Origin: Ianthella basta
Taxonomy: Eukaryota > Porifera > Demospongiae > Verongiida > Ianthellidae
DNA length: 64,000 nt
Direction: 5' to 3'
Assembly (NCBI GenBank): GCA_964019415.1
Contig: OZ025868.1
Location: 7,663,149 to 7,727,148, forward strand
This document shows positions 575 through 64,000 of the stretch, in pieces. Position 1 is the first letter of the stretch. Every line of letters begins with the position of its first letter. The notes under the pieces are model-generated. The model was not told the DNA's origin. It was given only the letters and a program-made list of their open reading frames with translations, and searched no databases. Made by a program: the position numbers and the translations under genes.

Positions 575-1584
575 ATGAACTGTGTGACCGTTAATGCCTC
601 GAATTTGCTGTCAAATGGAACGGAGCCTCTGGCACCGTGTGTCTATTGCTGGTGTATACTGATTTTTGCCTACATCCCCATAGTCACACTCACAGTGACT
701 GTGTTGGTGGCTGTCAGTGTTGCCAAAGGTGTGCCAGTTACCATTCGCTTTGTACTGGTAAACATCCTTGCAGCGTCCCTTATCGCAATAGCAGGGACAG
801 CCATGGCTTTTCGAATAGAGCTATATTGAGTAGCACCAACTATGGTTGCCCGTCTGACACAGCCTGCAGAGTCTACTACTGGGTGATTGACACAGGTGGG
901 ACGGCAAGACTGAGTTTCATGGCAACGTATGCCGTGGTAGTGTTTGTCATCATCAGGCGCTCTAACACAGCTGTGCGCCCCATCATTCTACTTCTCTCAG
1001 TGCTGGCAATTTGGATGTTTGTAATCAGTTTCAATGCACTGCTTTTCTCACCTCAAATTGTTGAATCCAACTTACTTGAATACTCTGAATGTGTCCCATG
1101 TGCAGGTACACAGCTTTGGGCATTGTATACAGTGCCATTCATCATCATATTCGTATTGGTGCCCATTTCCATTGCCATTGTCCTTCCCTGTGCGGCAATA
1201 TGCTTCATCAAGACAAATATTATTGAAGGGAGACCACAGCTATCAAAGCCAATGGTAAAATTTGCCCTGTTTCTTCTTTTGGGCAACACATTGGCACTTT
1301 TGGGCCAGGCCACGCCAGTTATCCTTGCTTCTCTGACAAGGGACAATAGGGATGATATCAATTACATGTTGGATGTGGCTATTAACTACACTAATGGAAT
1401 ACTTTTGACATTGTCATTCATCCCCACTCCCATTTTGATTTTGGTATACTTTAAACCAATTTGGAAACAGCTAACAAAGTTACCTGCCTGGTTATTCAAG
1501 TGCTGCAAAGGGGGAAACAGTGGCAGTGTTGAATTTCGTCAAAGGCAAAACATAAAGTCGAGGCATTTCATAACAGTGTGTTGA
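575..1584 (+). pseudogene. 7TM receptor, subfamily A copy 1, one frameshift
   Basis: This host receptor is nearly identical to the intact gene at 2561-3565. Reading starts at ATG 575 (MNCVTVNASN), matching the start of that gene. TM1 and TM2 run in one frame to about 815; everything from TM3 to the C-terminus continues in another frame to the stop at 1584. Compared with the intact copy, one base is missing in the short T run after GCCATGG near 806. TM3 GGTAR, the loop-2 Cys and the TM7 PTPILILVYFKP are all preserved, so the lesion is recent or a sequencing error. The C-tail (KQLTKLPAWLFKC) matches the B genes, not the neighbouring A gene, which suggests exchange between A and B. Confidence 0.8.
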
Positions 1585-2290
1585 GTTTAAATAGTATCAT
1601 TCCACTGTCATTTCACAACACAAAGTGATAGTTATAGTATATCGCACTGTATTTGATTTGTTAACTAATGTAATTATGTTTGCTTAGTGTAATTATTATT
1701 GTTATGCTGAATTGACAATCAACTGCATGATGCAATTGAACGTGGCTACCAATTCTTTATGAATACTGCCTATTGAACCTACAGTGTGAGCGAACCTTGC
1801 ATGTGATCAGAATTTAAGCTCATTGTGTAATGGCAACCAGTGTCTAAGCTACTTACATGTTGAATGTACACATATACAGGTGATAAAGCGTTCTGTCAAT
1901 TCCAACAGTACAGGAAATACATAGAAGAGAACATTTTTCATACCTGACTGAGCCTCAAACACTCTGACCTAAATTATAGGATGTGACTTTGACTATGATA
2001 GTGATTTAAACTGACGTACATAGCTATACGTAGATGTAGGGGAGACACTGACGTCACCATCACTTCCTGCATGCATGCAAACATTAAAGGGCACATGATG
2101 TGATGCATGTATTGCAAACCATTCCTTGTTCACCTGACAAATGGGGATGAAGACTATAGACTTAACTTTATAACAATGAATGCAGGATGTGCATACACAG
2201 GTTGCATTGTACCTAGGCACATTGCAGCATACACAATACTACTAAACATTAAATATATATAGAGTGGGACACATGCGCACCATGTAATGT
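1585..2290. other. Intergenic spacer between A copies 1 and 2
   Basis: AT-rich spacer. I see no gene, RNA gene or element end. From about 2293 it resembles the sequence upstream of the first A copy (326 onward), so the two genes and their leaders are tandem duplicates. Confidence 0.5.
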
Positions 2291-2560
2291 ATAACTTGCA
2301 CGAACTCAATTGGAAATCACCTGTGCTCTAAAGCTGTTTGCTGTAGCTAATAATAGAAGGGACTTTTACAGCAATTCTAAAGCAGCCCACTTGTGCGATA
2401 GTATTCAGGAGAAAATGGCTTTAATAGCAATGTGGGCGTAGACCATTTTCTGGCTTTGTACAATGATCCTCAAGACACAAAGGTGGCAATTACATCTCTG
2501 TCAACAACGAACTGAAGGAACAGTGACTGAAGATACATCAAGATTTACAGTGGCTTAACA

Positions 2561-3565
2561 ATGAACTGCTCAGTGACCGTTAATGCCTCAAATTTGCTGT
2601 CAAATGGAACGGAGCCTCTGGCACCATGTGTCTATTGCTGGTGTATGCTGATTTTTGCCTACATCCCCATAGTCACACTCACAGTGACTGTGTTGGTGGC
2701 TGACATTGGTGCCAAAGGCGTGCCAGGTACCATTCGCTTTGTACTGGTAAACATTCTTGCAGCATCCCTTATCACAATAGCAGGGACAGCCATGGGTTTT
2801 TCGAATAGAGCTATACTGAGTAGCACCAACTATGGTTGCCCATCTGACACAGCCTGCAGAGTCTACTACTGGGTGATTGACACAGGTGGGACGGCAAGAC
2901 TGAGTTTCATGGCTACATATGCTGTGGTAGTCTTTGTCATCATCAGATACTCTAACACTGCTGTGCGCCCCATCATTCTAATTCTCTCAGTGCTGGCAAT
3001 TTGGGTGTTTGTAATCAGCTTCAATGCACTGCTTTTCTCACCTCAAATTGTAGAATCCAACTTCCTTGGAAATTCTGGATGTGTCCCTCATGCAGGTACA
3101 CAGCTTTGGGCATTGTATGCAGTTCCATTCGTCATCATATTTGTATTGGTGCCCATTTCCATTGCCATTGTCCTTCCCTGTGCGGCAATATGTTTCATCA
3201 AGACAAATACTATGGAAGGGAGAACACGACTATCAAAGCCAATGGTAAAATTTGCCCTGTTTCTTCTTTTGGGCAACACATTGGCACTTTTGGGCCAGGC
3301 CACGCCAGTTATTCTTGCTTCTCTGACAAGGGACGATGGGGACAATGGCAATTACATGTTGGATGAGGTTATCAACTATGCTAATGGAATACTCTTGACA
3401 TTGTCATTCATCCCAACTCCCATTCTGATTCTGGTTTACTTCAAACCAGTCCGGAAACAACTTGAGAAATTTCTACAGAAACTTCTGTTCAAGCTGCACA
3501 ATCACGTTTGCTCCAAGCCTGATGCCAGTGGCCATAGCACATTGCGTCAGAAACTCCTACTGTAG
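2561..3565 (+). CDS. Divergent 7TM receptor, subfamily A, intact
   Basis: Single-exon membrane receptor of 334 residues; ligand unknown. Sequons NCS, NAS and NGT lie in the first 17 residues. Predicted TMs: 25-49, 57-80, 103-128, 136-159, 183-212, 228-255, 270-294. Cys99 at the top of TM3 and Cys174 in extracellular loop 2 can form the usual GPCR disulfide. GGTAR (109-113) lies inside TM3; the expected DRY is absent and the first basic residue is Arg129. TM7 ends PTPILILVYFKPVRKQL. ATG 2561 is chosen because homologues start with MNC at the same place and the frame is not conserved upstream. Upstream 2293-2560 repeats the leader of the first A gene. I infer a GPCR-like receptor from topology only. 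Confidence 0.85.
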   Translation: MNCSVTVNASNLLSNGTEPLAPCVYCWCMLIFAYIPIVTLTVTVLVADIGAKGVPGTIRFVLVNILAASLITIAGTAMGFSNRAILSSTNYGCPSDTACRVYYWVIDTGGTARLSFMATYAVVVFVIIRYSNTAVRPIILILSVLAIWVFVISFNALLFSPQIVESNFLGNSGCVPHAGTQLWALYAVPFVIIFVLVPISIAIVLPCAAICFIKTNTMEGRTRLSKPMVKFALFLLLGNTLALLGQATPVILASLTRDDGDNGNYMLDEVINYANGILLTLSFIPTPILILVYFKPVRKQLEKFLQKLLFKLHNHVCSKPDASGHSTLRQKLLL

Positions 3566-3864
3566 TAACACATATTGTATCTATTATGAATGTGAAATAT
3601 CTTGTTAGTTGCCACAAAGTGCTATAGCAAAGCTGCCATCATATATCATTATAATGTTTAGTATAAGATTATATATGTATCCAGCTATATAAAATTGATT
3701 GTTTGACACCTCAGTCCAGTGTTTCCTGGTGTATAATTTTAGTTTCAATTATTTAAGATACTTCTGTTTACAGCACATATCAGAATGGCAGCTAATGGTA
3801 ATTTATAAGCTACATGTATTTTCCTTAAGAGTATGGTATGATCTAGCCATGCACAGTGATATAT

Positions 3865-5322: not shown

Positions 5323-6285
5323 TCAACACTGCCATTGTTTCCCCTTTTGCAGTGAGCACATGCACTTGAATAACCAGGCAGGTAACTTTGTTAGCTGTTT
5401 CCAAACTGGTTTAAAGTACACCAAAATCAAAATGGGAGTGGGGATGAATGATGCTGTTAAGAAAACTCCGTTGACATAGTTGATGGCTTCATCCAAATTG
5501 CTAGTTTCAGTATTGCCATTTTCTATTTTAATCGCTGCAAAAACAACTGGTGTACTCTGCCCTACAGCTCCCAGTGTGTTACCAATAAGAAGAAACAGAG
5601 TGAACTTCACCATTGCCCTTGACAGGATCTGGTGTGTTCGCCCTTCAATCTTACCATTGCTGTACTTTTGACACATTACCACACACGGAAGTAAGATGGC
5701 AAGTGTTACTGGGACCAAGATAAAGATAATTGCATACGGCACTACGTACACAAAACCAAGCACAGTTGAATGTGGCACACATCCAGAGTTTGCAAGGAAG
5801 TTAGTCACAACTAATTGTGGGAAGAACGGCTGTGTGTGGAATAGAATCCCAAATATCCAAATTGCCGCTACTGAAGAAATTAGAATGCTGAGGCGCACAG
5901 CAGCTTTAGAGCGCCTGATGATGACAAATACTACAATGGCATATGTTGCCATGAAACTCATCCTTGCTGTCCCACCTGTGTTAATTGCCCAGTAGTAGAC
6001 TCTGCAGGCTGTGTCAGATGGGCCCAAATGGTCAGTACTGCTCAAAATTGCTCTATTCAGGAAAACCATGGCTGTCCCTGCTATTGTGATAAGGGAGGCT
6101 GCAAGGATGTTTACCAGTACAAAGCGAATGATACCTGGCACGCCTTTGGCACCAATGACAGCTACCAACACAGTCACCGTGAGTGTGACTATGGGGATGT
6201 AGGCAAAAATCAGCATACACCAGCAATAGATGCATGGTGGCCAAGGCTCCGTTCCATTAGAAGTATTTGCTGCTGAGCAGTTCAT
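5323..6285 (-). CDS. Divergent 7TM receptor, subfamily B, intact
   Basis: 321 residues from ATG 6285 (MNCSAANTSNGTEP), the start shared with the A genes and the second B gene; an in-frame ATG at 6309 would add eight residues. Three sequons precede TM1. TM3 has Cys-x13-Arg within GGTAR; loop 2 carries SGCVPH. Intracellular loop 3 is longer than in A and Lys-rich. TM7 reads IPTPILILVYFKP. The tail is short with several Cys and Trp. The gene faces the broken A gene at 6738 head to head, and the same pairing is repeated by the second B gene at 10200-11162. Confidence 0.85.
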   Translation of the reverse strand: MNCSAANTSNGTEPWPPCIYCWCMLIFAYIPIVTLTVTVLVAVIGAKGVPGIIRFVLVNILAASLITIAGTAMVFLNRAILSSTDHLGPSDTACRVYYWAINTGGTARMSFMATYAIVVFVIIRRSKAAVRLSILISSVAAIWIFGILFHTQPFFPQLVVTNFLANSGCVPHSTVLGFVYVVPYAIIFILVPVTLAILLPCVVMCQKYSNGKIEGRTHQILSRAMVKFTLFLLIGNTLGAVGQSTPVVFAAIKIENGNTETSNLDEAINYVNGVFLTASFIPTPILILVYFKPVWKQLTKLPAWLFKCMCSLQKGKQWQC

Positions 6286-6315
6286 TGTCACTCTACAGAG
6301 CCTGTACATATACAC

Positions 6316-6737: not shown

Positions 6738-6960
6738 GGTGTATACTAGTTATTGCCTGTGTACATCCCCATAGTCACACTCACAGTGACTGTGTTGGTG
6801 GGTGTCATTGGTGCTACGGGTGTACCAACAACCATTCGCTTTGTACTGGTAAACATCCTTGTAGTGTCCCTTATCACAATAGTAGGGCAGCCCGCAGGCA
6901 GCCCCTATATTGTTTTCAAATTGACATTTTCGTATGGCTTAATGTATGGATATATAATAT

Positions 6961-7165
6961 ACAGTGGAACCCCGCCTTGCGGACACCCCTGAAAAGCGGA
7001 CACCTCGATTATGCGGACACACTCTAAAGTCCCAACGATTGGCCCTATTCTACCTGTATAAAATTCCCCTTGAAATGCGGACACCCCGTTATTCCGTATT
7101 CCGGACAGCGCCCTGTGCACCGCCGTATACAACTCTGTATAAATCCCACTCCATAATCCGGACAT
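6961..7165. mobile_element. Pogo/Tigger-like MITE relic nested in copy I
   Basis: Starts ACAGTGGAACCCCGCCTTGC and repeats GCGGACAC units three times; this wording is typical of pogo/Tigger terminal repeats. The opposite terminus was not found, so the extent is approximate. Confidence 0.4.
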
Positions 7166-7632
7166 TTCGATCAGCTGCCAGAAAAAATGGCCGCTCCCTG
7201 ATTTGCACCGCTCACTCTGACAAGTGACAGGAACAGCACAGAAGTTGACGAGTGCCCCAAATCGTCTATGCTATGGGTTTTGAAAGTGCCTTTAACACGG
7301 GAAAGTTCAGCGCGAACAGCTACCTTTTAGAATCGTCGTCAGAAATGGTGCGTGAGTCGAGTACTCCAGCGAACACCGCTACCTTTGCAAATTCGTATTA
7401 CTTTGATGCACTTCATGCATACCAGATGATTGTTTTAACGTATGGGCTTATAAGCCGTACCTCTGAATTGCGCTGTAGCAAACGTAGGTAGCTTTTGCCA
7501 TCACAGACCACTAGCTACTCCGGCGACTGTGGGTTCCTTGGTACATTATATTTCAGTAAATATTCACAGTAAATGCATGTGCTGTAAGCAGTCATGTATC
7601 TGTCTTTGCTGGAGATTTCTCTGTGCATGTGT

Positions 7633-7645
7633 TGTGTGTGTGTGT

Positions 7646-7705
<60 letters not shown>
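7633..7705. repeat. (TG)n microsatellite
   Basis: Long TG/GTG tract inside hairpin-element copy I; the same position in copy II is the long CA tract at 33277-33512, so the microsatellite belongs to the element. Confidence 0.9.
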
Positions 7706-7710
<5 letters not shown>

Positions 7711-8556
7711 GTCATGTAGCTATGTCTGGTGAATAGTGGTATATGTGTACTGTCACTGAGGTGTATGACACAATGTCACGTGTTACCAATCATGAGTGAC
7801 AGAACAGCGACCCAAGGGAGCAAGTATTTCGAGTTGGAGTGGCAGCCCCACAAGTTTTTTAACTCGAAATACTTGTTTCGAATAGAGCTATATTGAGCAG
7901 CACCAACTATGGTTGTTTGTCTGACACGGCTTGCAGAGTCTACTACTGGGTGATTGACACAGGTGGGACGGCAAGACTGAGTTTCATGGCAACTTATGCT
8001 GTGGTAGTGTTTATCATCATCAGGCGCTCTAACACAGCTGTGCGCCCCATCATTCTAATTCTCTCAGTGCTGGCAAATTGGATATTTGTAATCAGCTTCA
8101 ATGCACTGCTGTTCTCACCTCAAATTGTTGAATCCAACTTTCTTAAATATTCTAAATGTGTCCCACGCGCAGGTACACAGCTTTGGGCACTGTTTGTAGT
8201 TCCATTTGCTATCATATTTGTGTTGGTGCCCATTTCCATTGCCATTGTCCTTCCCTGTGTGGCAATATGTTTCATCAAGACAACTATTATGGAAGGGAGA
8301 AAACAACTATCAAAGCCAATGGTAAAATTTGCCCTGTTTCCTCTTTTGGCAACACATTGGCACTTTTGGGCCAGGCCACGCCAGTTATCCTTGCTTCTGT
8401 GACAAGAGACGATGGGGACAATGGCAATTACATGTTGGATGAGGTTATCAACTACACTAATGGAATACTCTAGACATTGTCATTCATCCCAACTCCCATT
8501 CTGATTTTGATTTTCTTCAAACCAGTCCGGAAACAACTTGAGAAATTTCTACAGAA

Positions 8557-8758
8557 GCTCTATCAGCATTGATCTCTGACAATTCTGTTTTAGCATTTGC
8601 ATGCATGCTCATTTAGGGTGTAATGTACTTTTAGCACTGTTTAGTGTTTAAGCACTGTGTGTCAGAATCTGTGGTATTATTATTGTGGTTAATACTATTA
8701 TTGTATTATATTATAATGTAAAGCACTTATGTACTCTCACTTATGTACACTCATATCA
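8557..8758. mobile_element. 202-bp insertion with 7-bp duplication TACAGAA
   Basis: The intact A gene reads TTTCTACAGAAACTTCTGTT without interruption. Here TACAGAA occurs at 8550-8556 and again at 8759-8765 around 202 bp of AT-rich sequence with no coding. It is a short non-autonomous insertion of unknown class. Confidence 0.65.
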
Positions 8759-9149
8759 TACAGAAACTTCAGTTCAAGCTGCACAATCACGTTTGCTCCA
8801 AGCCCGATACTAGTGGCCATAGCACATTGCGTCAGAAACTCCTACTGTAGTAACACATATTGTATCTATTATGAATGTGGAATATCTTGTTAGTTGCCAC
8901 AAAGTGCTATAGCAAAGCTGCCATCATATATCATTATAATATTTAGTATAAGATTATATATGTATCCAGCTATATAAAATTGATTGTTTGACGCCTCAGT
9001 CCAGTGTTTCCTGGTGTATAATTTTAGTTTCAATTCTTTTAGATACTTCTGTTTACAGCCCATATCCAAATTGCAGGCAATGGTAAGCTACATGTGTTTT
9101 CTGTAAGAGTATGGTATGATCTAGTCATGCACAATGATATAGTATCTTT

Positions 9150-10199: not shown

Positions 10200-11162
10200 T
10201 CAACAATGCCATTGTTTCCCCTTTTGCAGTGAGCACATGCACTTGAATAACCAGGCAGGTAACTTTGTTAGCTGTTTCCAAACTGGTTTAAAGTACACCA
10301 AAATCAAAATGGGAGTGGGGATGAATGATGCCGTTAAGAAAACTCCGTTGACATAGTTGATGGCTTCATCCAAATTGCTAGTTTCAGTATTGCCATTTTC
10401 TATTTTAATCACTGCAAAAATAACTGGTGTACCCTGCCCTATAGCTCCCAGTGTGTTGCCAATAAGAAGAAACAGAGTGAACTTCACCATTGCCTTAGAC
10501 AGGACCTGGGGTGTTTTCCCTTCAATCTTACTATAGCTGTACTTCCGACACATTACCACACACGGAAGTAAGATGGCAAGTGTTACTGGGACCAAGATAA
10601 AGATAATTGCAAATGGCACTGTGTACACAAAACCAAGCACAGTTGAATGTGGCACACATCCAGAGTTTGCAAGGAAGTTGGTCACAACTAATTGTGGAGA
10701 GAACAGTTGTGTGTGGAATAGAATCACAAATATCCAAATTGCTACCACTGAGGAAGTTAGAATGCTGGGGCGCACAGCAGTTTTAGAGCATCTGATGATG
10801 ACAAATACTATAATGGCATATGTTGCCATGAAAATCATCCTTGCTGTGCCACCTGTTTCAATCACCCAGTAGTAGACTCTGCAAGCTGTGTCAGATGGGC
10901 ACAAATAGTTGGTACTGCTCAAAACTGCTCTATTCAGGAAAACCATGGCTGTCCCTGCTATTGTGATAAGGGAGGCTGCAAGGATGTTTACCAGTACAAA
11001 GCGAATGGTACCTGGCACAGCTTTGGCACCAATGACAGCCACCAACACAGTCACTGTGAGTGTGACTATGGGGATGTAGGCAAAAATCAGCATACACCAG
11101 CAGTAGATGCACGGTGGCCGAGGCTCCGTTCCATTAGAAGTATTTGCTGTCGAGCAGTTCAT
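10200..11162 (-). CDS. Divergent 7TM receptor, subfamily B copy 2, intact
   Basis: 321 residues from ATG 11162 (MNCSTANTSNGTEP); an in-frame ATG at 11243 would add 27 residues with no signal-peptide look. It is a close paralogue of the B gene at 5323-6285, with the same TM3 Cys-x13-Arg, loop-2 SGCVPH, TM6 KFTLFLLIGNTLGAIGQ and TM7 PTPILILVYFKP. Differences fall mainly at the end of TM2/loop 1 (SSTNYLCP against SSTDHLGP) and TM4/loop 2, not in TM6-TM7. It sits head to head with the A fragment at 11605. Confidence 0.85.
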   Translation of the reverse strand: MNCSTANTSNGTEPRPPCIYCWCMLIFAYIPIVTLTVTVLVAVIGAKAVPGTIRFVLVNILAASLITIAGTAMVFLNRAVLSSTNYLCPSDTACRVYYWVIETGGTARMIFMATYAIIVFVIIRCSKTAVRPSILTSSVVAIWIFVILFHTQLFSPQLVVTNFLANSGCVPHSTVLGFVYTVPFAIIFILVPVTLAILLPCVVMCRKYSYSKIEGKTPQVLSKAMVKFTLFLLIGNTLGAIGQGTPVIFAVIKIENGNTETSNLDEAINYVNGVFLTASFIPTPILILVYFKPVWKQLTKLPAWLFKCMCSLQKGKQWHC

Positions 11163-11604
11163 TGTCACTCTACAGAGCCTGTATATATACAGACCCTCTT
11201 TTGTACAGACTCTGTTATCTGTTATATACCAGAAATGTTCCATTTATAAGCAGCCTACTCGAGTATAGGCTAAGTGTGACAGTAACTGTGTACGTAGCTG
11301 TGTACAAAAGAATTCACCTTCAAGTTTCCATAAAAGCCCACGTCGTATAGCCCATTTGGTCTTGATCCTGACAGTCCCTTACACTGCTGTTCTGTAAACA
11401 AGCTGTGTTCTGTTTGTATCACTTTCAAATCTCTGTCCTTTCAGACATTGTTGGATGCAAGTGGCAATACACTGATCAGCATTTCATTTCTATTTCTATA
11501 TAACTGTGGTCAACCTACACTGCAAATTCTGCTTGTAACGCATTATACCAAGGCAGTCCTGAACACAGACTGACCCAATACAAACTCCATGCACTATTCC
11601 TGCA

Positions 11605-11904
11605 TCAGGAATATGCTAGTTATTGCCTACGTACATCCCCATAGTCACACTCACAGTGACTGTGTTGGTGGGTGTCATTGGTGCTACGGGTGTACCAACA
11701 ACCATTCGCTTTGTACTGGTAAACATCCATGCAGTGTCCCTTATCACAATAGTAGGGGTAGCCATGTTTTTTTGAATTGAGCAATATTGAGCAGCACCAA
11801 CTATGGTTGCCCGTCTGACACAGCCTGCAGAGTCTACTACTGGGTGATTGACACAGGTGGGACGGCAAGCCTGAGTTTCATGGCAACTTATGCTGTGGTA
11901 GTGC
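11605..11904 (+). pseudogene. Subfamily A receptor fragment, TM1-TM3
   Basis: Matches A genes from TM1 (TACATCCCCATAGTCACACT) through the TM3 GGTA[R/S] block, then stops abruptly at 11904 in unrelated sequence. One frame change lies near the T run at 11766. The Arg of the TM3 signature is Ser here (GGTAS). The junction at 11904 marks the right end of the A/B duplication block. Confidence 0.75.
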
Positions 11905-12305
11905 GAATAGACACTCAGGCAGGCCTTACGTACGTAAGTTGCCTAGCTGACCGTACATATGTCAAGTGTTGGGAGCATGCATCCTAGAATCAGCTGGAAG
12001 GAGAGCAGGCTGTATACGAATACTACACATTTTGCTTATGTGCACTCCAAGCTGGCTTTATAATTAATTGTGTAAGCTAGAACTGCTGCATCTACAACAT
12101 CAATTATATAATATTATACATCGAAAGAATCCCAAGCTTCCATGACCTACACATCCAATATCTATTATCGGTACTGTTTAGCTACTTTCTACGAAGCATG
12201 CAAATACATATTGGGGTAGCCTTAAATGGAAATATTTTCAAAATTAAGGTCACAGGTGTGACAAATGATACACATTTAGTGCATAAAACAGTGTATAATA
12301 CACTA
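11905..12305. other. Spacer between A/B and C blocks
   Basis: AT-rich, no gene or clear repeat seen. It holds the 3' side of the C gene that ends at 12306. Confidence 0.4.
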
Positions 12306-13202
12306 TCACTGTTTATGACAACAACAACAAAACCAATTTAGTAGTTTCCTCCTCGTAGGCCTTAACAATGTGATGATTAAAATGGGAGTACCAATGAGGG
12401 ACAAATCAGTCATAGCAGAAACTATGAAGTGAGCAAGTGTAATACTAGCAGCAAGTGCTGCCAACGCACCAATGTGACAAAGAAGTACAATGAACTGATC
12501 AAATATTACAAAAATAGCAAATCGAATAATGGCTGTACTTTCTTTCACAGTGTTGTAACGCTTGGTGTAACAGTAGGATGCTATCACACATGATACGGTT
12601 ATCACCATGGGTGCAATAATAATTAGCAAACCATGCAAACCAGTGTACAGGAAGAGCCCAAGGCTAGCTGCACCTTCCTCATAGCGTCCTTCTGCACAGG
12701 TCCCATTTACGTCATCAAACGCTAGTGGTATTGCGACAACTGCCGCTGCACACCACAAACCGATAACCACCATGATGAAGTACTTCACATTTCGTGGTGA
12801 AAGGACAGGCTTGTTCCAGAACCTGATTACCAGTACCACTACAACCGCATAAGTTAGGGTGAGGAGCATCCGACTGCTTTCAGCGGCAACAAAAAGCTCA
12901 ATAATGGCTTTACAGAATGGTACTCTTACATCTGACTGGAACGGTATGGCAAGTGAGAGACTATGCCTCACAATGGAAATGATACAGGCTATGAGAGATG
13001 TAAGGACAATGTTGCCAAACAATACTCGAACAATCTTGTCTGTCTTTGAGTCTCTGAATAATGCCAATAGGATTAACACATCCAGTACAAGCACCAAGAA
13101 GGAGACCAACAAAACCAGTGCATCTATCACAAGTTGGACAGTTAGTAAAGAGTCTTCCTGGAGAAGGAACGAAGTAGCTGAACTGTCATTTGAGAGATTC
13201 AT
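12306..13202 (-). CDS. Divergent 7TM receptor, subfamily C, intact
   Basis: 298 residues from ATG 13202 (MNLSNDSS; the frame upstream has no ATG). Seven hydrophobic segments. TM1 ends VLILLALFRDSKTDK, TM3 begins with Cys and carries AESSR 14 residues on, and TM3 ends VLVIRFWNKPVLSPRNVKY, a loop-2 motif diagnostic of C. Loop 2 contains DDVNGTC. TM7 is SLIGTPILIITLLRPTRRK, so the first Pro of the other families is Gly and Tyr is Leu. The tail is only about ten residues and contains CCCC, a likely palmitoylation site. No long third loop. Confidence 0.84.
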   Translation of the reverse strand: MNLSNDSSATSFLLQEDSLLTVQLVIDALVLLVSFLVLVLDVLILLALFRDSKTDKIVRVLFGNIVLTSLIACIISIVRHSLSLAIPFQSDVRVPFCKAIIELFVAAESSRMLLTLTYAVVVVLVIRFWNKPVLSPRNVKYFIMVVIGLWCAAAVVAIPLAFDDVNGTCAEGRYEEGAASLGLFLYTGLHGLLIIIAPMVITVSCVIASYCYTKRYNTVKESTAIIRFAIFVIFDQFIVLLCHIGALAALAASITLAHFIVSAMTDLSLIGTPILIITLLRPTRRKLLNWFCCCCHKQ

Positions 13203-14055: not shown

Positions 14056-14735
14056 TCAAACAGTAGTCAAACCTAATGATGCTGAAATTTGTGACAGCAA
14101 CAAAACCACTTTAATATTCTTGTCTTGTACGCCGTAAGTAGCAATGATTAAAAAGGGAGTAAAGATGAGGGACAATTCAACAATAGTAAGAACAAAGTAG
14201 CAGACAAAGGTGCTGTCTGCAAAAGCCGTTGCCAGTAAACTGATGTAACCCAGAAATATAATGACTTGATCAAAAATTACAAAGAAACCAAATCGAATGA
14301 TAGCTTTCGCAGCAATACTTTCCTTCACAGCGTTATAACGCTTGGTGTAGCAGTAAGCGGCTATCACAACACATCCCACGGTAGTCGTCATGGGTGCAAT
14401 GACAAAGAATGAGCCATATAGACCAAAGTAAATGTACAGCTCAAGAGCAGTTTCTTCATAGCCTCCTATCACACAGATCCCATGCATTCACATCATCAAA
14501 CACAAGTAGTATTGCGACAACTGCTGCTACACACCACAGGCCATCAACCACTATGATAAGATACTTCAAATTCTGCGGTGAAAGGACTGGCTTGTTCCAG
14601 CATCTGATCACCAGTAACACTACAACAGCATAAGTTAGAGTGAAGAGCATTCGGCCTCCTTCAGCTGCAAAAGTTAGCACAACTGTGGCTTTGCAGAGTG
14701 GTATTCTATTTTCAGACCAGAATGGCAAAGCAAGT
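14056..14735 (-). pseudogene. Subfamily C receptor, 5'-truncated and frameshifted
   Basis: TM3-TM4 (with NKPVLSPQNLKY) read in one frame from about 14728 to 14480; TM5-TM7 read in a second frame down to 14100 after an extra base in the loop-2 DDVN region; a third frame is needed for the tail. The N-terminus and TM1-TM2 are missing beyond 14738, where unrelated AT-rich sequence starts. Confidence 0.8.
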
Positions 14736-14739
14736 ACCC

Positions 14740-49243: not shown

Positions 49244-49253
49244 ATTATAATAT

Positions 49254-49340
49254 TCAACCAGGCATTCAAAACACGGAAAACAGCACACCCACAATGGAGA
49301 ATTATGTAGCATACATGCACTTTCATTGCACCTATTCAAA
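49254..49340 (-). promoter_or_regulatory. E/F upstream module, next to the repeat element
   Basis: CCAGGCATTCAAAACACGG, CACCCACAATGGAGAATTAT and ACACTTTCATTGCACC-like text in module order; no receptor follows on the minus strand, where the inverted-repeat element now lies. Confidence 0.5.
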
Positions 49341-49461: not shown

Positions 49462-50481
49462 TCAAGAATTTCTTGTGTCTTCATCAGCAGTTGAAACCAA
49501 CATCATTTCAGTTAAAGGATCTTGCTTTGACATCACCATAAGCCTCTTGCACCATCTGCTGCAAATCCTCAGCAAACACTTTCTCATCTGAATACGAACT
49601 GGCTTGAAGTACACCAGAATCAGAATAGGAGTGGGAACAAGAGACAAAGCTAGTAGAACATTGTACATGCGTACAAGGAACAAGAGTACTTCTTCTTCAA
49701 CGTAAGTGAATTGGGTGATCAAGGCAATGGCAACAGCCACTGACAACCCCATGAAGCACAACATATTACCAATAAGAAGGAACAATGCAAACTTCACCAT
49801 TGGCTTCAGACTTCCAGCTTTCTCAGAAACAGCATTAGATCGAATGTAACACAATGCATACACTGGCATTATAGCTGCCAAAGTGAAAGGAAGAATTGCA
49901 AAGAAGGGAAAGTATAAAACAGCAAAAATCCACAGTTGAGGCTCTGCACGGAGAAACACATCAATTGTACAGCTAAAGGAATCAAATTCAATAACTCCAG
50001 GAATGAGAAGAAGCAAGGCAATTGCTCCACAGGCAATCCACACAACTTTTGCTGAGATGACTAGACACTTGAAATTCACAGCACTGTTTGAACATTTGAT
50101 GATAACAACAACCACGACTGCAAACACGAGTAAAAATGCTGATCTAGCACTTCCACCGATTGTTACCACAGCAAGAAAGGTTTTTACAGCCAGTTTAGCT
50201 GAATCATCTTTACGTGAAATTAAATGTTTATTAGATACCAGTGTACTGAGACATATCAAACCAGTCCCAAAGCAAATCATAATTGCTGCAACAAGAATGT
50301 TACCTAGCACAAATCGAATGGTGCCACGAACAGCTTTAGCAGCAATAACTAGAGACAGGAGAATTATCAGACAGGCAAAGATTACCAAGTAGACCACAAT
50401 CATCACTGCACTAAAGGCCCACTGGCTAGTGCCAGCTAATGTCTCATTTGTGGTATTGCAAGCGACGCTAATTTCATCCAT
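49462..50481 (-). CDS. Divergent 7TM receptor, subfamily F copy 1, intact
   Basis: 339 residues from ATG 50481 (MDEISVACNTTNET); the frame is open further up but without ATG and into the conserved upstream module. TM3 has GGSAR but no Cys 14 residues before it; other Cys are in late TM2 (ICFG, LICL) and loop 2 (SFSC). TM3 ends VVVVIIKCSNSAVNFKCLVIS. Loop 3/TM6 SNAVSEKAGSLKPMVKFALF; TM7 SLVPTPILILVYFKPVRIQM. The tail is basic and ends SKQDPLTEMMLVSTADEDTR. Near-duplicate of 54184-55128 except in TM1-loop 1. Confidence 0.86.
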   Translation of the reverse strand: MDEISVACNTTNETLAGTSQWAFSAVMIVVYLVIFACLIILLSLVIAAKAVRGTIRFVLGNILVAAIMICFGTGLICLSTLVSNKHLISRKDDSAKLAVKTFLAVVTIGGSARSAFLLVFAVVVVVIIKCSNSAVNFKCLVISAKVVWIACGAIALLLLIPGVIEFDSFSCTIDVFLRAEPQLWIFAVLYFPFFAILPFTLAAIMPVYALCYIRSNAVSEKAGSLKPMVKFALFLLIGNMLCFMGLSVAVAIALITQFTYVEEEVLLFLVRMYNVLLALSLVPTPILILVYFKPVRIQMRKCLLRICSRWCKRLMVMSKQDPLTEMMLVSTADEDTRNS

Positions 50482-50584
50482 CACCTGCACTAGAGAAATA
50501 GAACCATCACTTACACCAGGTTGGTTTAGCTTGAATATACCCAAATGCAAGTATCTACCATGAATACAGTGAACCAGATATAAC

Positions 50585-50735
50585 AACACCAGGCAGTCAA
50601 TGCAAGGAGAAAGGCAGACCCACAATAGAGTATTGAATAATCTGTACATACACTTTCAGTGCAACAATTCAATCTCAGCTATACATACTGATCAACACTT
50701 TCATTACAGCAGATGAAGCATATAATCATGTGAAA
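50585..50735 (-). promoter_or_regulatory. E/F upstream module (F1)
   Basis: CCAGGCAGTCAATGCAAGGA, CACAATAGAGTATTGAATAA (50621-50640), ACACTTTCAGTGCAACAATT and TTACAGCAGATGAAGCATAT, 100-250 bp upstream of F1. Fullest example of the module. Confidence 0.65.
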
Positions 50736-50844: not shown

Positions 50845-51000
50845 GTTTCTGTCAAATGTTGCCGCATGCCTTGATATCCCAGAAAACTTCCTGCATGCAC
50901 TCCTACAAACACGTACTAAACACTTTTTCAGGGCACGTACTGGTTTGAAGTGCACCAAAACTATATAGAATAGGAGTGGGAATGTTGGACACCAGGATAT
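50845..51000 (-). pseudogene. Subfamily E C-terminal fragment
   Basis: The end of TM7 (GGAGTGGGAATG...GGTTTGAAGTGCACCAAAAC) and the tail of an E gene in reverse order as expected for minus strand, with an extra TATATAGAA. Nothing of TM1-TM6. Duplicate at 55518-55705. Confidence 0.7.
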
Positions 51001-51129
51001 AACATCTATATTTCCGTCTATAAAAATCTACAATTTAGCTATAGTAGCACTTTTATGCTCTGATTCAATGAACACATATATGATCTAAGCTGCACAATGT
51101 TCACAGGCTATAATCTACCTTCAAATGAG

Positions 51130-52559: not shown

Positions 52560-53350
52560 CCAATGATCTAAAAAACCTAATATCAGATTCTAAGATACTT
52601 CTAGATCTTGCAAACATTTCAAAGGACTTATATACAAGGGCATTACTTTATGAGGACATAGACTGGTTTGAATTACATACAGCAAAGCTAGTTTGGAAAT
52701 GGAAATGATGAACAAGCTCGAGGATTCAATACAATGCCAATGAATCGATTTAATTGAACAATATATATACATCAACTAGCCCTTTGGAGTAGGCATGCAG
52801 ACTCTAGAGATGCTGCTACCAATGCTGTGGCATGGCCCATGGTGGTGCTCAGTAGGGTACCAAGGAGAAACGTAAGACAGAAATCTTCAACATAGCTATA
52901 GCTAGGCTTCAAACTTGCAACATTTTCACTGACAGTGTTTGCTCAGAAGGATGCAATAAGCAGAACAACATTGAGAGCAAATGTAATGCATATAAACAAA
53001 CGAAGAAAGGAGCAGAATATATATGTGTGTAAGCCCATAGTGAATATATCGTGGAATACAGCCTGTGTTTTGTACCTATAGGCAGCACTTGCATGACACC
53101 AGGAAGCAGAAGTATTGAATTAAATACACCACAAACCAGCCATTACAGATGATCAAGTAATGTGACAGCACTGATGGAAATTTGATGATGAAATACGTAC
53201 ACCACCTAGTCTCACTTCAGGCGCTATTCCACGATGGAGGGTCTTAGTAGCAACAATGTCAATCAACAACGATCGACAATGAAGACCAATACAACCGGGT
53301 AGAAAGTAGCTATGACAAGGCAATAAGCACAGGGCTCTACAACAACCATT
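52560..53350 (-). pseudogene. Subfamily E receptor, heavily decayed
   Basis: TM7 (52640-52700), TM6 and loop 3 (52830-52930; GGTGCTCAGTAGGGTACCAA is the conserved TM6 text), TM5 (52940-53010), loop 2/TM4 (53050-53150), TM3 relic (53160-53200) and TM1/N-terminus (53280-53350). TM2 is lost, with many small deletions. Confidence 0.78.
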
Positions 53351-54183
53351 GTTGTATGCATCCTATCATGAAAAAATCCATATGCATCTGCAAATCTGAA
53401 AACACAAAAGTACTATTCACACAATGAGTGAATACTGCTACCCCAACAAAACATAATTGTATAGAATGTGAAGTTGAATATTAATGCATTGTACGAATGC
53501 AATACAAGTGTGTTCCCAACCAAATGATATACAAAATCATTATTTGGGAGGCAGGTGCAGTCACAGGAAGTACATGGTGCCATTTCAGGCTGTGTATACA
53601 CACCTGGTGTGTATACACACACAACAGAATGTGAATCGTATCGTACCATATAATTATTCAATAACATATTCATGCATTCACATCCTGCGTATGCATATGC
53701 CATCCTTTCAATTATCAATTTCATTATGCATTATGTATGACTTTGGCATGGTCAGCTCTTACTGCAAACAGTCCCTATTTATGTGCGCAATCCATACTAC
53801 ATACTGTCTGCTCATGACCTTGAGCTTTATGTATCATTATCGTGAAAATGCATTGTGTAATGTAAGAATGTTGTTCAGAGTATACTATTAGTAACAACCA
53901 TGCAGCTACAAAAGATGCCACTGCATGGACGCTTCATTTCAAAGCATAAAGTCAACTTTCCTAGCCTGTTGGCACATGTACATTGCTTCATGCATTATTA
54001 TGCCAAATATAGAGGCAATGATGCATAATTTTATACAGACGTTCGCTTACAAAATTTAGATGCAGTGAAATTAACTGTTGTCCAAATAAAGATGTTAAAT
54101 AACTAATAGTATAAAATTATTCATAGCAGTCAGCAATTAATGTATATGAAATGATCCTGCCATAATGCCCCGACCGAATTCTG
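53351..54183. other. Spacer 3' of F2; no gene
   Basis: Includes a short inverted GTGTATACACACCAGGTGTG near 53590. No gene recognised. Confidence 0.45.
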
Positions 54184-55128
54184 TCAAGAATTTCTTGTGT
54201 CTTTATCAGCAGTTGAAACCAACATCATTTCAGTTAAAGGATCTTGCTTTGACATCACCATAAGCCTCTTGCACCATTTGCTGCAAATCCTCAGCAAACA
54301 CTTTCTCATCTGAATACGAACTGGCTTGAAGTACACCAGAATCAGAATAGGAGTGGGAACAAGAGACAAAGCTAGTAGAACATAGTACATGCGTACAAGG
54401 AAAAAGAGTACTTCTTCTTCAACGTAAGTGAATTGCCGGGTGATCAAGGCAATGGCAACAGCCACTGACAACCCCATGAAGCACAACATATTACCAATAA
54501 GAAGGAACAATGCAAACTTCACCATTGGCTTCAGACTTCCAGCATTCTCAGAAACAGCATTAGATCGAATGTAACACAATGCATACACTGGCATTATAGC
54601 TGTCAAAGTGAAAGGAAGAATTGCGAAGAAGGGAAAGTATAAAACAGCAAAAATCCACAGTTGAGGCCCTGCACGGAGAAACGCATCAATTGTACAGCGA
54701 AAGGAATCAAATTCAATAACTCCAGGAATGAGAAGAAGCAAGGCAACTGCTCCACAGGCAATCCACACAACTATTGCTGAGATGACTAGACACTTGAAAT
54801 TCACAGCACTGTTTGAACATTTGATGATAACAACAACCACGACTGCAAACACGAGTAAAAATGCTGATCTAGCACTTCCACCAATTGTTACCACAGCAAG
54901 AAAGATTTTTACAGCCAGTTTAGTTGAATCATCTTTACGTGAATTTAACTGATTTATAGACGCCAGCACACGGAGACACATCAAACCAATCCCAAAGCAA
55001 ATTACAATTGATGCAGTGAGAATGTTAGCCAGTACAAAGCGAATGGTGCCACAAACAGCTTTAGCAGTAATAACTAGAGACAGGATAATCATCAGGCTGG
55101 CAAAGATGCCCAAGAAGATCACAATCAC
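54184..55128 (-). pseudogene. Subfamily F copy 2, N-terminus deleted
   Basis: Near-identical to F1 from TM3 to the tail (about 11 substitutions and one inserted Arg in 240 residues), with GGSAR, TM7 PTPILILVYFKPVR and LTEMML. About 110 bp encoding the N-terminus (MDEIS to the start of TM1) is absent: the text joins CACAATCA to CTTACACCAGG, between short ATCA repeats in F1. The first in-frame codon after an upstream stop is GTG at 55128; the first ATG (55092) lies within TM1. Without an upstream exon it would lack its glycosylated N-terminus. The remaining frame is fully open, so loss is recent. Confidence 0.72.
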
Positions 55129-55209
55129 TTACACCAGGTTGGTTTAGCTTGAATATACCTAAATGAGGGCATCTACCATGAACACAGCGAAACAAACACG
55201 ATTAACACC

Positions 55210-55517: not shown

Positions 55518-55705
55518 ATTGTTCTACTCCATTGGAGAAGCCAACAACCTTTCTGTCAAATGTTGCTGCATGCATGCCTTTATATCCCAGAAGACTTCTT
55601 GCATGCACTCCTACAACCACGCAGTAGACACTTTTTCAGGACATGTACTAGTTTGAAGTACACCAAAATTAGAATGGAAGTGAGAATGTTGAACACAAGG
55701 ATATA
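55518..55705 (-). pseudogene. Subfamily E C-terminal fragment, copy 2
   Basis: ATTGGAGAAGCCAAC, CTGTCAAATGTTGCTGC, then tail and TM7 end as at 50845-51000; nothing of TM1-TM6. Duplicated with the F1/F2 unit. Confidence 0.7.
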
Positions 55706-56225: not shown

Positions 56226-56394
56226 TAATTATACCAATCTATACATTACAAATTGTTAGGAGATATAGCTTCTGTGTGCATGCAATTTGCAAGGTTGCAT
56301 GACTGTGCAATTCACATTCTGCATTAAATAATAGGCACAGCTATTACTAAAGATACAATGAAATGAAACACATAGTTGTAGTACAAAAGCTATA

Positions 56395-56600
56395 TTCCAA
56401 GGCAGTGTGTAATTGATGCAGTGAGAATGTTAGCCAGTACAAAGCGAATGGTGCCTGGCACAGTTCTAGCAGCAATGACTAGACACAGGATAGCAACAGT
56501 GAAGGAAAAGATTATCATATAGACAGATACCATCACCAACAGGGCCCACTCTGATTTTAGTGGCTGTACTGTTGCAAAGGTAATGAACTTCATCCATTGC
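56395..56600 (-). pseudogene. Subfamily F fragment, N-terminus to TM2
   Basis: ATG at 56596 (MDEVHYLCNSTAT) then a frame change, TM1, and VPGTIRFVLANILTASI of TM2, ending abruptly at 56395. It keeps its upstream module (56725-56850). Confidence 0.72.
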
Positions 56601-57426: not shown

Positions 57427-58440
57427 TCATTGGTTGTCAGCAGTTGCAGCCAGCATCATTTCAGTTAAAGGACCTGACTTTGACATAATCACATTTCTTT
57501 TGCCCCATTTGCTACAAATCCTCTGCAAACACTTTCTCATTTGAACACGAACGGGCTTGAAGTACACCAAAATCAGAACAGGAGTGGGAACAAGGGATAA
57601 AGCTAGTAGAACATAGTACATCCGCACAAGGAACAACGTTACTTCTACATCAATGTCAAGTAGTCGGGTGATAAGGGAGATGGCAACAGCCACTGACAGC
57701 CCCATTATGCACAGCAGGTTACCGATGAGAAGGAAGAGTGCAAACTTCAACATTGGCTTCAAACTTGTAGCATTGTTTGAAACAGCATTATTTCTAATGT
57801 AGCATAATGCATACACTGGCATTGCAACTGCTAAAGTGAAAGGAAGAGCTACAAAGAAAGGATAGTACAAAACAGCGAATATCCATGATTGAGGCCCTGC
57901 ACGAAGATGTACATCAAGAATTGAGCAGTTAAAGGAAACAATGGAAACAACTCCTGGAACTATGACAAGGATGCCAACTGCTACACATGCAATCCACACA
58001 ACCAATGTAGAGATGACCAGGTACTTGAACTTCACAGCACTGCTTGAGCCTTTGATGATGATAACCACCACAACTGCAAACACAAGTAAAAATGCAGATC
58101 TACCATTTCCACCAATTACTACCACAGCAAGAAAGAACTTCAGAGTCAGTTCAGCAGAATCATCATGTGAAAAGTAACGGTTGTGTAAAAGAAGCGTAAT
58201 GAGACATATCGAACCAATACCGAAGCAAATTGTCATTGATGCAATGAGACTGTTGACCAGCACAAATCGAATGGTGCCACGAACAGCTTTTGCAGCAATA
58301 ACTAGACACAGGACTGTTATCAGGAAGACAAAGATTACTGAAAAGACAAAGATCATCACCGAACTAAAGGCCCACTTTCCAGCAGCAGCTACTGTGTCGA
58401 CGTCATTGGTAGCATTGCAAATAGCATCATTTCCATCCAT
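57427..58440 (-). CDS. Divergent 7TM receptor, subfamily F copy 3, intact
   Basis: 338 residues from ATG 58440 (MDGNDAICNATNDVD; no ATG upstream in frame). TM3 signature GGNGR without the preceding Cys; loop 2 Cys in FNCSILD, itself a sequon. TM3 ends VVVIIIKGSSSAVKFKYLVIS, combining F and E features. Loop 3/TM6 NNAVSNNATSLKPMLKFALF; TM7 SLVPTPVLILVYFKPVRVQM. The tail ends SKSGPLTEMMLAATADNQ. Loop 1 (LLLHNRYFSHDDS) is the main region of difference from F4. Confidence 0.86.
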   Translation of the reverse strand: MDGNDAICNATNDVDTVAAAGKWAFSSVMIFVFSVIFVFLITVLCLVIAAKAVRGTIRFVLVNSLIASMTICFGIGSICLITLLLHNRYFSHDDSAELTLKFFLAVVVIGGNGRSAFLLVFAVVVVIIIKGSSSAVKFKYLVISTLVVWIACVAVGILVIVPGVVSIVSFNCSILDVHLRAGPQSWIFAVLYYPFFVALPFTLAVAMPVYALCYIRNNAVSNNATSLKPMLKFALFLLIGNLLCIMGLSVAVAISLITRLLDIDVEVTLFLVRMYYVLLALSLVPTPVLILVYFKPVRVQMRKCLQRICSKWGKRNVIMSKSGPLTEMMLAATADNQ

Positions 58441-58985: not shown

Positions 58986-58989
58986 GTTA

Positions 58990-59098: not shown

Positions 59099-59104
59099 TG
59101 TAAT

Positions 59105-60858: not shown

Positions 60859-60944
60859 GTAATTCTTGCTCTCCAATAACATATAATCACTCTCCTATAT
60901 GATATAATCGCTCTCCAATAAGATATAATCGCTGTCTGATAACA
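60859..60944. repeat. 21-bp tandem repeat, four units
   Basis: Units of the form ATAATC(G/A)CTCTCCAATA(A)GAT, diverged at the outer copies. Confidence 0.8.
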
Positions 60945-61620: not shown

Positions 61621-62627
61621 TCATTGGTTGTCAGCAGTTGAAACCAGCATCATTTCAGTTAAAGGATCTTGCTTTGACATAATCCCATTCCTTTTGCACA
61701 ATTTGCTGCAAATCCTCTGCAAACACTTTCTCATTTGAACACGAACAGGCTTGAAGTACACCATAATCAGAACAGGAGTGGGAATAAGAGACAAAGCATG
61801 TAGCACAGTAGACATGCGCACAAGGAACCTCACTACTTCTACATCAATGTCAGGTAGTCGGGTGATAAGGGAGATGGCAACACCCACTGACATCCCCATC
61901 ATGCACAGCAGGTTACCGATGAGAAGGAAGAGTGCAAACTTCAACATTGGCTTCAAACTTGTAGCATTTTCAGAAACAGCATTATTTCTAATGTAGCACA
62001 ATGCATACACTGGCATTGCAACTGCTAAAGTGAAAGGAAGAGCTGCAAAGAAAGGATAGTACAAAACAGCAAGTATCCACAATTGAGGCCCTGCACGATA
62101 TTGTACACCAAGAATTGAACAGTTAAAGGAAACAACGGAAACAACTCCTGGAACTATGACAAGCATGCCAACTGCTACACATGCAATCCACACAACCAAT
62201 GTAGAGATGATCAGGTACTTGAACTTCACAGCACTGTTTGAGCCTTTGATGATGATAACCACCACAACTGCAAACACAAGTAAAAATGCGGATCTACCAT
62301 TTCCACCAATTGCTACCACAGCAACAAGGAACTTTAGAGCAAGTTCAGCAGAATCATTATGTGAAACCTGACGGCTGATAGAAAGAAGCCTACCGAGACA
62401 TAGCAAAGCAATTCCAAAGCAAATTGCCATTGATGCAATGAGACTGTTGACCAGCACAAATCGAATGGTGCCACGAACAGCTTTTGCAGCAACAACTAGA
62501 CACAGGACTGTTATCAGGAAGACAAAGATTACTGAAAGACAAAGATCATCACCAAATTAAAGGCCCACTTTCCAGCACCAGCTACTGTACCATTGGTAGC
62601 ATTGCAAATGGCATCATTTCCATCCAT
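61621..62627 (-). pseudogene. Subfamily F copy 4, single frameshift in TM1
   Basis: ATG 62627 (MDGNDAICNATNGT) reads into TM1, then one A is missing from GAAAAGACAAAG (near 62536; compare F3 at 58340), after which TM1-TM7 and tail are open to the stop at 61621. TM3 GGNGR, TM7 SLIPTPVLIMVYFKPVR and SKQDPLTEMMLVSTADNQ are intact. Only one lesion, so it is a very recent pseudogene, a polymorphic allele or an assembly error. Confidence 0.8.
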
Positions 62628-62734
62628 CGCTAGCGCTAGAGAAACACAAGTGTCCTGTACACCAGGTTCATGTATCTTGAACTGTTCCAAATGCGGGCGT
62701 CGACAATATGGATGCTGTGAATCAACCAGACTTG

Positions 62735-62890
62735 ATCAACACCAGGCAGTCAATGCAAAGTGAAAGGTAAACCAACAATGGACTACTGAATGGTCTATAC
62801 ATTACATTTTCGGTACAAAATTTTAACCACAGCTGTACACATGATTGATAGTCAACACTTTCATTATAGCACGTGAAGCTCAAGATACTA
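62735..62890 (-). promoter_or_regulatory. E/F upstream module (F4)
   Basis: CACCAGGCAGTCAATGCAAA, ACCAACAATGGACTACTGAA, TACATTTTCGGTACAAAATT; near copy of the F3 module. Confidence 0.65.
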
Positions 62891-63039
62891 CATATGCACA
62901 TGACATACAGTAGTTAACAGTATTATTTAATATTATGTATAATTATATCATACAAACGTATTGCAATAGTACTCCTGCATACAAACATCAGTGTTATATA
63001 CTTGTCTAATGCAACTTGAGAACAAAAATTGAGAATGCC

Positions 63040-64000
63040 ATAATGTTCTATTCTATTGGAGAAGGCAACATCCTTTCTGTCAAATGCTGCTTCCATGATA
63101 TTTCAGAAGATTACCAGCACACACTCCTACAAACACGTAGGAGACACCTTTTTATTGGCACATGGACTGGTTTGAAGTACACCAAAACTAGAATGGGAGT
63201 GGGAATGATGCACAAGAGGATGATAACAACGCTGCATGAATTAATGGTCCAAAGTACCAAGGGTGTAGAAGAATCAGGCTTAATATATGCTGTAATCATG
63301 GGTGTGGTGTGGCTCATGGTGCTCAGTAAGGTACCAAGAAGGAGGAAGAAAGAGAACTTCAACATGACAAAGTTTGCTCATACGTACCAGAAGGATGCAA
63401 TAAGTGGAACAACATTCAAAGCAAATGGAATGAAAATAATGCAAACAAAGAAAAAACAGTGTATAGATAGCACCTTAGGGACCAGAACGAGGAAAGCAAC
63501 CTGTAGCTTTGTTACTAACCACTTCCATGATACTGGGAGAGATGAGCAGCAATATTGAATGTACCACAAACCAGCCACATGGCTAGAGTGCTGATGATCA
63601 AATACTTCAACTTGACAGCACTGATGGAGTACTTGATGATGATATACACTACAATAGCAAACGCAGCCATCACCAGAGGTCTACTGATGCCGCCAACTGA
63701 GATGAGAACGATGAGAGACCTGCAAACACTATATATCTGTGAGAGACTATTGTCCAAGAGCGGTCACAACACCTCTAGCTAGCGAGGTCTATCACAAAGA
63801 TACCAAAGCCAGCTGTGAAACTGGCAACGAGAATGTTGGCCAGCACAAAGCATAATGCGAGGAAGTACTTTAGCTGTTACTGCCAGAGACAGGACAGCAA
63901 CAGTGAAGACCAGTGCAACCAGGTATACAGTAACAAACACAAAGCAATAAACACTGGGCTCCATGGCAGCTTCCGTCACATTTGCGCTTGTTCCATTGAT
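63040..64000 (-). pseudogene. Subfamily E receptor, frameshifted, runs off the window
   Basis: TM6-TM7 and tail (63050-63365), TM5 (63380-63480), TM3-TM4 with GGISR and IIIKYSISAVKLKYLIIS (63540-63757), TM1-TM2 (63780-63979); the N-terminus continues past 64000. At least three frame breaks; loop 3 lost about 40 bp (VSETAASLKP missing) and the tail motif is gone. Closest to E4. Confidence 0.8.

Follow-up and report, generated by a model that had tools for sequence, protein, structure and literature searches.

Lineage-specific clusters of rhodopsin-family receptor genes are already a known kind of locus in sponges. In Amphimedon queenslandica, Krishnan et al. (2014) described the sponge-specific clusters AqRho-A to AqRho-E (PMC4302439; here and below, citations refer to parts of the published sources), and a later gene set for this species contains 130 such genes (PMC10570526). 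Conaco et al. (2012) detected 33 of 143 genes, with 25 higher in larvae, and a larval chemoreceptor role was proposed for the rhodopsin-family clusters (PMC3447736). Here we analyze a 64,000-nucleotide stretch of the genome of the sponge Ianthella basta (assembly GCA_964019415.1, contig OZ025868.1, here C1, positions 7663149–7727148; hereafter, the window), which holds one superfamily of seven-transmembrane (7TM) genes that forms a divergent branch of the class A (rhodopsin) G protein-coupled receptors (GPCRs). The reading we favor, and consider reasonably probable, is that the window belongs to a birth-and-death array of class A GPCR genes, most likely encoding chemoreceptors for small molecules from water, food or microbes.

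The likeness to AqRho lies in class A genes without eumetazoan orthologues (as the cited parts of those reports describe them) in adjacent clusters on contigs that are attributed to duplication (PMC4302439, PMC3447736). The two differ in scale and detectability: 126 AqRho genes were found with Pfam 7tm_1, in clusters of 2 to 8 and one of 13, whereas Ianthella has about 350 loci, about 85 of them in a single array, and of all these loci 8, and no more than 11, clear the Pfam 7tm_1 cut-off, none of them in the window. These figures come from six protein searches of the 209 Mb genome (96 contigs) and a Pfam 7tm_1 search, with positions rounded to the kilobase and merged within 1 kb; the total of 351 includes fragments and four loci that only the 7tm_1 search picked up, which is why we write "about 350", and each protein search scored 21–29% of its first-look candidates, making the counts a lower bound. 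The genome thus holds at least about 350 superfamily loci, with 16 clusters of five or more, and the window makes up the left-hand portion of an array that spans ~300 kb and counts at least about 85 loci. The 7tm_1 search put 21 places over its cut-off, of which 8 coincide with superfamily matches and 10 look canonical; counts based on Pfam can therefore miss nearly a whole repertoire. Both the Amphimedon census and a screen in Halichondria picked GPCRs by Pfam domains (PMC4302439, PMC8242945). Our literature search found no superfamily so large that Pfam misses and, with position 3.39 covered narrowly, no signature of arginine at 3.39 (R3.39); absence from print is unproven.

Placement within class A

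The class A placement follows from profile searches, from relatives that pass the 7tm_1 cut-off and from profile–profile comparison. A profile (A2) of 41 of the 75 proteins in our maximum-likelihood tree, which comprises window members and relatives elsewhere in the genome, matched 138 distinct PDB sequences at E ≤ 10, and the best 60 of the 138 were all class A. The best match was 5-HT2B (1.7e-10, 43.4 bits), bovine rhodopsin matched at 2.4e-7 (33.0 bits) over profile positions 19–308 of 326, and none of 200 control shuffles was listed. A profile built from window proteins only gave 15 PDB matches (best E 0.024), 14 of them class A receptors and one a nascent chain in which the aligned segment can be recognized by eye as opsin.

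None of the proteins from the 17 family open reading frames (ORFs) in the window passes the cut-off of any Pfam family, 7tm_1 included; g20087 alone shows weak similarity to 7tm_1 (E=0.0097, short of the cut-off), and among the 17 there was no 7tm_2 or Frizzled match pointing to class B or F, nor did any of them confidently match a family of membrane proteins other than receptors. A 7tm_1 match at E ≤ 0.01 exists for seven of the 41 A2 members and for none of the other 34. The bridge to class A is formed by proteins of a related clade outside the window: L075 (35.1) and L076 (31.3) exceed the 7tm_1 cut-off of 30.5, and L070–L072 score 25–28. In blastp (E values for an assumed database size of 1e7, top three matches each), the matches of L071, L072, L075 and L076 to window proteins range from 1e-18 to 7e-31, among them L075 with g2561 (2e-23) and L071 with g10200 (7e-31), and L075 alone against PDB finds 5-HT2B at 4.7e-5, with all 22 matches listed being class A. 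By hhalign, the window profile matches two canonical class A proteins encoded in this genome at 29.6% (E 5.7e-4) versus 0.4% (E 0.17) for six class C proteins. An initial sequence-only reading of the window had called the family a divergent 7TM superfamily; it stands as a receptor family, and is to be corrected in that the profile search and the relatives passing 7tm_1 assign it to class A.

Sponge class C (metabotropic GABA-like) arrays show the same tandem GPCR expansion in another GPCR class. Over 120 metabotropic GABA receptors are described in Ephydatia muelleri (PMC7385117), and the Ianthella genome has 89 class C (7tm_3) matches, 79 at or over cut-off and 19 in open frames of more than 850 residues, with arrays at C9:3.12–3.33, C5:8.05–8.08 and C3:12.35–12.49 Mb, among others (L081–L086).

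Several results pull against this placement. Reversed rhodopsin still scores 18.4 bits against the A2 profile (E 0.0066 at PDB size), so part of the profile signal is composition. L072 alone matches nothing in PDB; profiles of the bridge and mid-group proteins alone miss the two canonical class A proteins in hhalign (0.5% and 8.8%); and these two proteins have no blastp match to window proteins.

That the best PDB matches are aminergic (5-HT2B) could be taken to mean that the receptors bind the sponge's own amines, peptides or lipids, in contraction, feeding or development, and were multiplied by duplication; metabotropic GPCR signaling without neurons has been proposed for Ephydatia muelleri (PMC7385117). 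The aminergic rank, however, may merely reflect well-sampled PDB families, and about 350 loci with many wrecks would seem beyond the need of internal ligands, and we regard this explanation as quite improbable.

Transmembrane motifs and the sodium pocket

Hallmark residues were counted in 73 proteins: the 15 intact proteins of the window plus 58 distinct relatives with 290 residues or more, near-copies among them, excluding the two canonical class A proteins, g919, two N-truncated ORFs and loci without a 290-residue ORF. A hidden Markov model alignment with rhodopsin is collinear from transmembrane helix 1 (TM1) to helix 8. It sets the GG of the family's GGxxR motif on G120-G121 and the arginine on A124 (3.39), in GGEIA; a valine on R135 (3.50); the TP of PTPILI on N302-P303 (NPVIY); the Phe of "YFKP" on N310; and the tail cysteines near C322-C323. 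Alignments of 5-HT2B with L075 and with the 41-member profile likewise place the arginine column on S3.39. This arginine is present in 70 of 73 proteins (53 of 56 after filtering to <80% identity), and its column lies exactly 14 positions from that of the TM3 cysteine (3.25) in all 73.

Part of the class A anatomy is retained: W4.50 in 73/73, cysteine at 3.25 in 61/73 and in extracellular loop 2 (ECL2) in 68/73, and P7.50 in 62/73. R3.50 is found in none of the 73 (66 have V there) and D2.50 in none (S in 28, G in 23, C in 20, A and N in one each), T occupies 7.49 in 65/73, and N or Q occupies 6.44 in 60/73, where rhodopsin has phenylalanine. DRY, CWxP and D2.50 are gone, and NPxxY survives as TPILI. 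An N-glycosylation sequon occurs in the N-terminal tail of 15/15 window proteins and 55/58 relatives, and lysine plus arginine is higher in intracellular loops 1–3 than in ECL1–3 in 13/15 and 56/58, respectively. At the level of sequence, the hydrophobic peaks, the charge pattern and the glycosylation sites indicate seven helices with the N-terminus outside.

The motifs first proposed for the family were borne out to differing degrees. Absence of DRY and NPxxY holds throughout (0 of 18 proteins with [DE]R[YFWHC], 0 of 18 with [ND]Pxx[YF]). GGxxR, said to be common to all intact genes, is strictly present in 12 of 15, g26720 having GGTGQ and two group C genes AAESSR and AAGSGR; a PTPILI-like TM7, also ascribed to all, occurs as [PS][TS]P[IV] in 12 of 15 (lacking in g12306, g20087 and g36770); and K-[FL]-x-x-F at the start of TM6 occurs in 13 of 15, group C having R.

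The loss of DRY, CWxP and D2.50 and the degenerate NPxxY could also suggest a 7TM family without G-protein signaling, such as a channel or transporter, that is only GPCR-like. The collinear rhodopsin alignment, W4.50, the 3.25 and ECL2 cysteines, the charge pattern and the cysteine-rich tail all argue against this, and the vertebrate bitter receptors (TAS2Rs) lack the same motifs, yet are GPCRs (PMC11646861); we give it very little credence.

TAS2Rs are comparable in anatomy, being a large chemoreceptor family without DRY, CWxP or NPxxY whose sodium pocket contains an arginine (PMC10392674, PMC11646861). In ordinary class A receptors, D2.50 and S3.39 hold a sodium ion that stabilizes the inactive state, and in TAS2R simulations R2.50 bonds S3.39 when inactive and N1.50, 7.49 and 7.50 when active (PMC10392674). 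The difference is one of placement: TAS2Rs have R at 2.50 in TM2 and S/T/N at 3.39, whereas our proteins have R at 3.39 in TM3 and S/C/G/A/N at 2.50, a mirror image; TM7 carries HSxxL in TAS2Rs and a TPILI-like motif in the window proteins, none of the 17 of which matches Pfam TAS2R. From these patterns we infer, tentatively and with more doubt than conviction, a class A branch of hundreds of genes in which the sodium–D2.50 switch has been replaced by a built-in cation, R3.39, wired to the 6.44 amide and S7.45/T7.49. A buried R3.39, together with N/Q6.44, S7.45, T7.49 and N/T/D1.50, would then stand in for the sodium–D2.50–N7.49 switch.

Subfamilies, gene content and turnover

The window was inventoried by six-frame ATG ORFs, followed by tblastn of family ORFs against the window for relics; ORF lists of this kind are blind to spliced genes of other families. 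The family features are as follows (window coordinates; tblastn marks features found by that search).

575–1584, plus strand: group A relic, frame broken near 810, with a 221-residue ORF (g919) at 919–1584
2561–3565, plus strand: group A intact receptor, 334 residues (g2561)
5323–6309, minus strand: group A intact receptor, 328 residues from the first ATG (g5323)
6762–8838 (6762–6899; 7878–8838), plus strand: group A relics (tblastn)
10200–11243, minus strand: group A intact receptor (g10200), 347 residues from the first ATG, likely about 320
11569–11918, plus strand: group A relic (tblastn)
12306–13202, minus strand: group C intact receptor, 298 residues (g12306)
14143–14767, minus strand: group C relic (tblastn)
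16155–16897, minus strand: group C relic, 3 stops (tblastn)
17783–17872, minus strand: group C fragment (tblastn)
20087–21016, minus strand: group C intact receptor, 309 residues (g20087)
23520–24542, minus strand: group D intact receptor, 340 residues
25240–26214, minus strand: group D intact receptor, 324 residues
26720–27706, minus strand: group D intact receptor, 328 residues (g26720), Q at 3.39
28618–29324, minus strand: group D relic (tblastn)
30101–31120, minus strand: group D intact receptor, 339 residues
36770–37792, minus strand: group E intact receptor, 340 residues (g36770)
38862–39104, minus strand: family fragment (tblastn)
40589–41620, minus strand: group E intact receptor, 343 residues (g40589)
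42342–43370, minus strand: group E intact receptor, 342 residues
44650–45660, minus strand: group E intact receptor, 336 residues
45869–46275, minus strand: group E relic (tblastn)
49462–50649, minus strand: group F intact receptor (g49462), 395 residues from the first ATG, likely about 339
50866–51018, minus strand: group E-like fragment (tblastn)
52799–53394, minus strand: group E-like relics (tblastn)
54184–55195, minus strand: group F gene with a broken N-terminus, 302-residue ORF (g54184)
55527–55687, minus strand: group E-like fragment (tblastn)
56393–56551, minus strand: group F fragment (tblastn)
57427–58440, minus strand: group F intact receptor, 337 residues
61621–62702, minus strand: group F gene without N-terminus, 269-residue ATG ORF (g61621) and an upstream fragment at 62535–62702
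63066–63997, minus strand: group E relic running to the window end (tblastn)

The six-frame list yields 17 family ORFs (269–395 residues) and one 221-residue relic ORF, all of which belong together as the single superfamily first proposed. Fifteen of the 17 are intact, each with 7–8 hydrophobic peaks, while g54184 (302 residues) and g61621 (269 residues) are N-truncated; with about 15 further relics from tblastn, several with stops or broken frames, the array is, as had been noted, tandem and full of wrecks. First-ATG lengths of the intact proteins are 298–395 residues. Internal starts are likelier for g10200 (347 residues) and g49462 (395 residues), giving about 320 and 339, and with these the earlier range of 298–342 is essentially right, g40589 (343 residues) being the exception.

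The coding region of the intact genes is one open frame, in agreement with the single-exon structure claimed for them. TAS2R genes, too, have a single coding exon. At group F starts on the minus strand, upstream of 50481 and 58440, a polypyrimidine tract followed by AG precedes the likely ATG, and at g49462 a clear CAG ends the tract; this may represent the acceptor of a possible intron in the 5′ untranslated region.

Two ORFs of at least 150 residues are neither family nor antisense to family. The first (18276–18737, plus strand, 153 residues) has no Pfam family over cut-off and resembles, by eye, what we take to be a C-terminal fragment of a retroelement Pol. The second (48755–49312, minus strand, 185 residues) carries STPR repeats (Pfam PF21107, 32.7 bits against a cut-off of 27), and its N-terminal stretch resembles, by eye, an in-frame stretch upstream of g49462. 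Rfam and tRNA searches of the window found nothing.

In the tree, groups A, C, D, E and F each fall on one side of a single branch separating them from the other groups, with support of at least 100/99. Pairwise identity among window proteins is 57–90% within A, E and F, 40–53% within D and 53% within C, and 16–40% between groups. The expectation of five or six subfamilies in blocks is therefore upheld at five clades, the A and B first distinguished being one clade with two subclades. A, E and F form a clade (99/90) with receptors at C1:7.91–7.93 Mb, and C and D belong to another large clade (96/87), together with receptors from different contigs and from positions further down C1. Since C and D group with receptors outside the region, the window did not arise by a single local radiation; the placement of the groups indicates that its blocks formed when founders already distinct from one another were duplicated locally in tandem.

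Duplication has continued, with recent copies 92–100% identical in the 11 pairs compared. At the left end, copies 8.25 kb apart are 98.8–98.9% identical over 3.4–3.7 kb, and C1:7.763–7.772 and 7.846–7.856 Mb (L025/L026, L028/L029, L031/L032) are 99.9–100% identical over 2.9–3.9 kb, intergenic DNA included. These last copies, 83–84 kb apart, may reflect a very recent segmental duplication or a duplication in the assembly. Separately, two receptor genes at C1:15.53 Mb and C2:10.94 Mb have identical scores in opposite orientation, which suggests either recent copying from one chromosome to another or an assembly error.

Selection and possible function

Omega (the ratio of nonsynonymous to synonymous divergence) was estimated by NG86, and pairs with synonymous divergence (dS) above 1.2 were dropped, leaving 21/21 usable pairs in group A, 36/36 in E, 6/6 in F, 1/10 in D, 1/1 in C, 9/10 in G, 36/36 in C12, 15/15 in C1_8.4 and 8/10 in C22/8.8. 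Across these nine groups omega was 0.18–0.63, and it was below 1 in every usable pair, which indicates purifying selection. Broken copies are about as numerous as intact ones in the window and near-identical copies occur, as in a mostly decaying array that is large through tandem duplication and has little present function. The 15 intact frames and the purifying selection seen in all nine groups make such an array most unlikely.

The extracellular (outer) half had a higher omega than the intracellular (inner) half in six of the nine groups (outer/inner: E 0.52/0.33, F 0.52/0.37, C12 0.57/0.24, C1_8.4 0.66/0.30 and, from one pair each, C 0.44/0.30 and D 0.22/0.14). This pattern fits ligand-driven diversification, though not uniformly. 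In A and E, dS was lower in the inner than in the outer half (0.216 vs 0.348 and 0.240 vs 0.360, respectively), which may reflect gene conversion between neighbors.

A large family, a tandem layout and many wrecks, together with the recent copies and the omega values, are the chemoreceptor-like traits seen here, and they would fit chemosensory use. NEMCH nematode chemoreceptors and vertebrate olfactory receptors are likewise large, fast-evolving and rhodopsin-derived, and several chemoreceptor families form tandem clusters (PMC11526382); the 17 window proteins differ from NEMCH and olfactory receptors in having no match to the Pfam Sr-family or 7tm_4. Under the chemoreceptor reading, a ligand would enter an outer helical pocket, TM6 would move and a heterotrimeric G protein would be engaged, and each receptor would probably be expressed in few cells. 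Some observations sit less well with this reading. The outer/inner contrast is reversed in A (0.34/0.45) and slightly in G (0.19/0.22) and about equal in C22/8.8 (0.30/0.31), and it compares raw values from non-independent pairs, with no significance test; moreover, no promoter word is shared across 14 groups above the level of 40 dinucleotide shuffles, in a comparison where the sequences taken upstream of g5323 and g10200 were displaced by one or two codons.

Rapid turnover is as compatible with an arms race as with smell, and the array could instead comprise microbe-sensing receptors for bacterial or symbiont metabolites that serve immunity or symbiosis. In Halichondria, sponge GPCRs are among the candidate microbe-recognition receptors, though the cited part of that report shows no GPCR among the genes responsive to lipopolysaccharide (PMC8242945), and amine-receptor ligands like those that its symbionts make elicit responses in Amphimedon larvae (PMC10570526). 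With omega below 1 in all usable pairs speaking against it as well, we consider this unlikely, if less so than the other alternatives.

The chemoreceptor reading would make these genes candidate receptors for chemical sensing in an animal probably without a nervous system. The family is also a large natural experiment, in which to see how a class A bundle may function when the usual switches are absent. If the arginine switch is real, large chemoreceptor families have twice independently dropped DRY, CWxP and NPxxY and filled the sodium pocket with an arginine, which would suggest that there is a general route by which chemoreceptors become tunable and independent of sodium.

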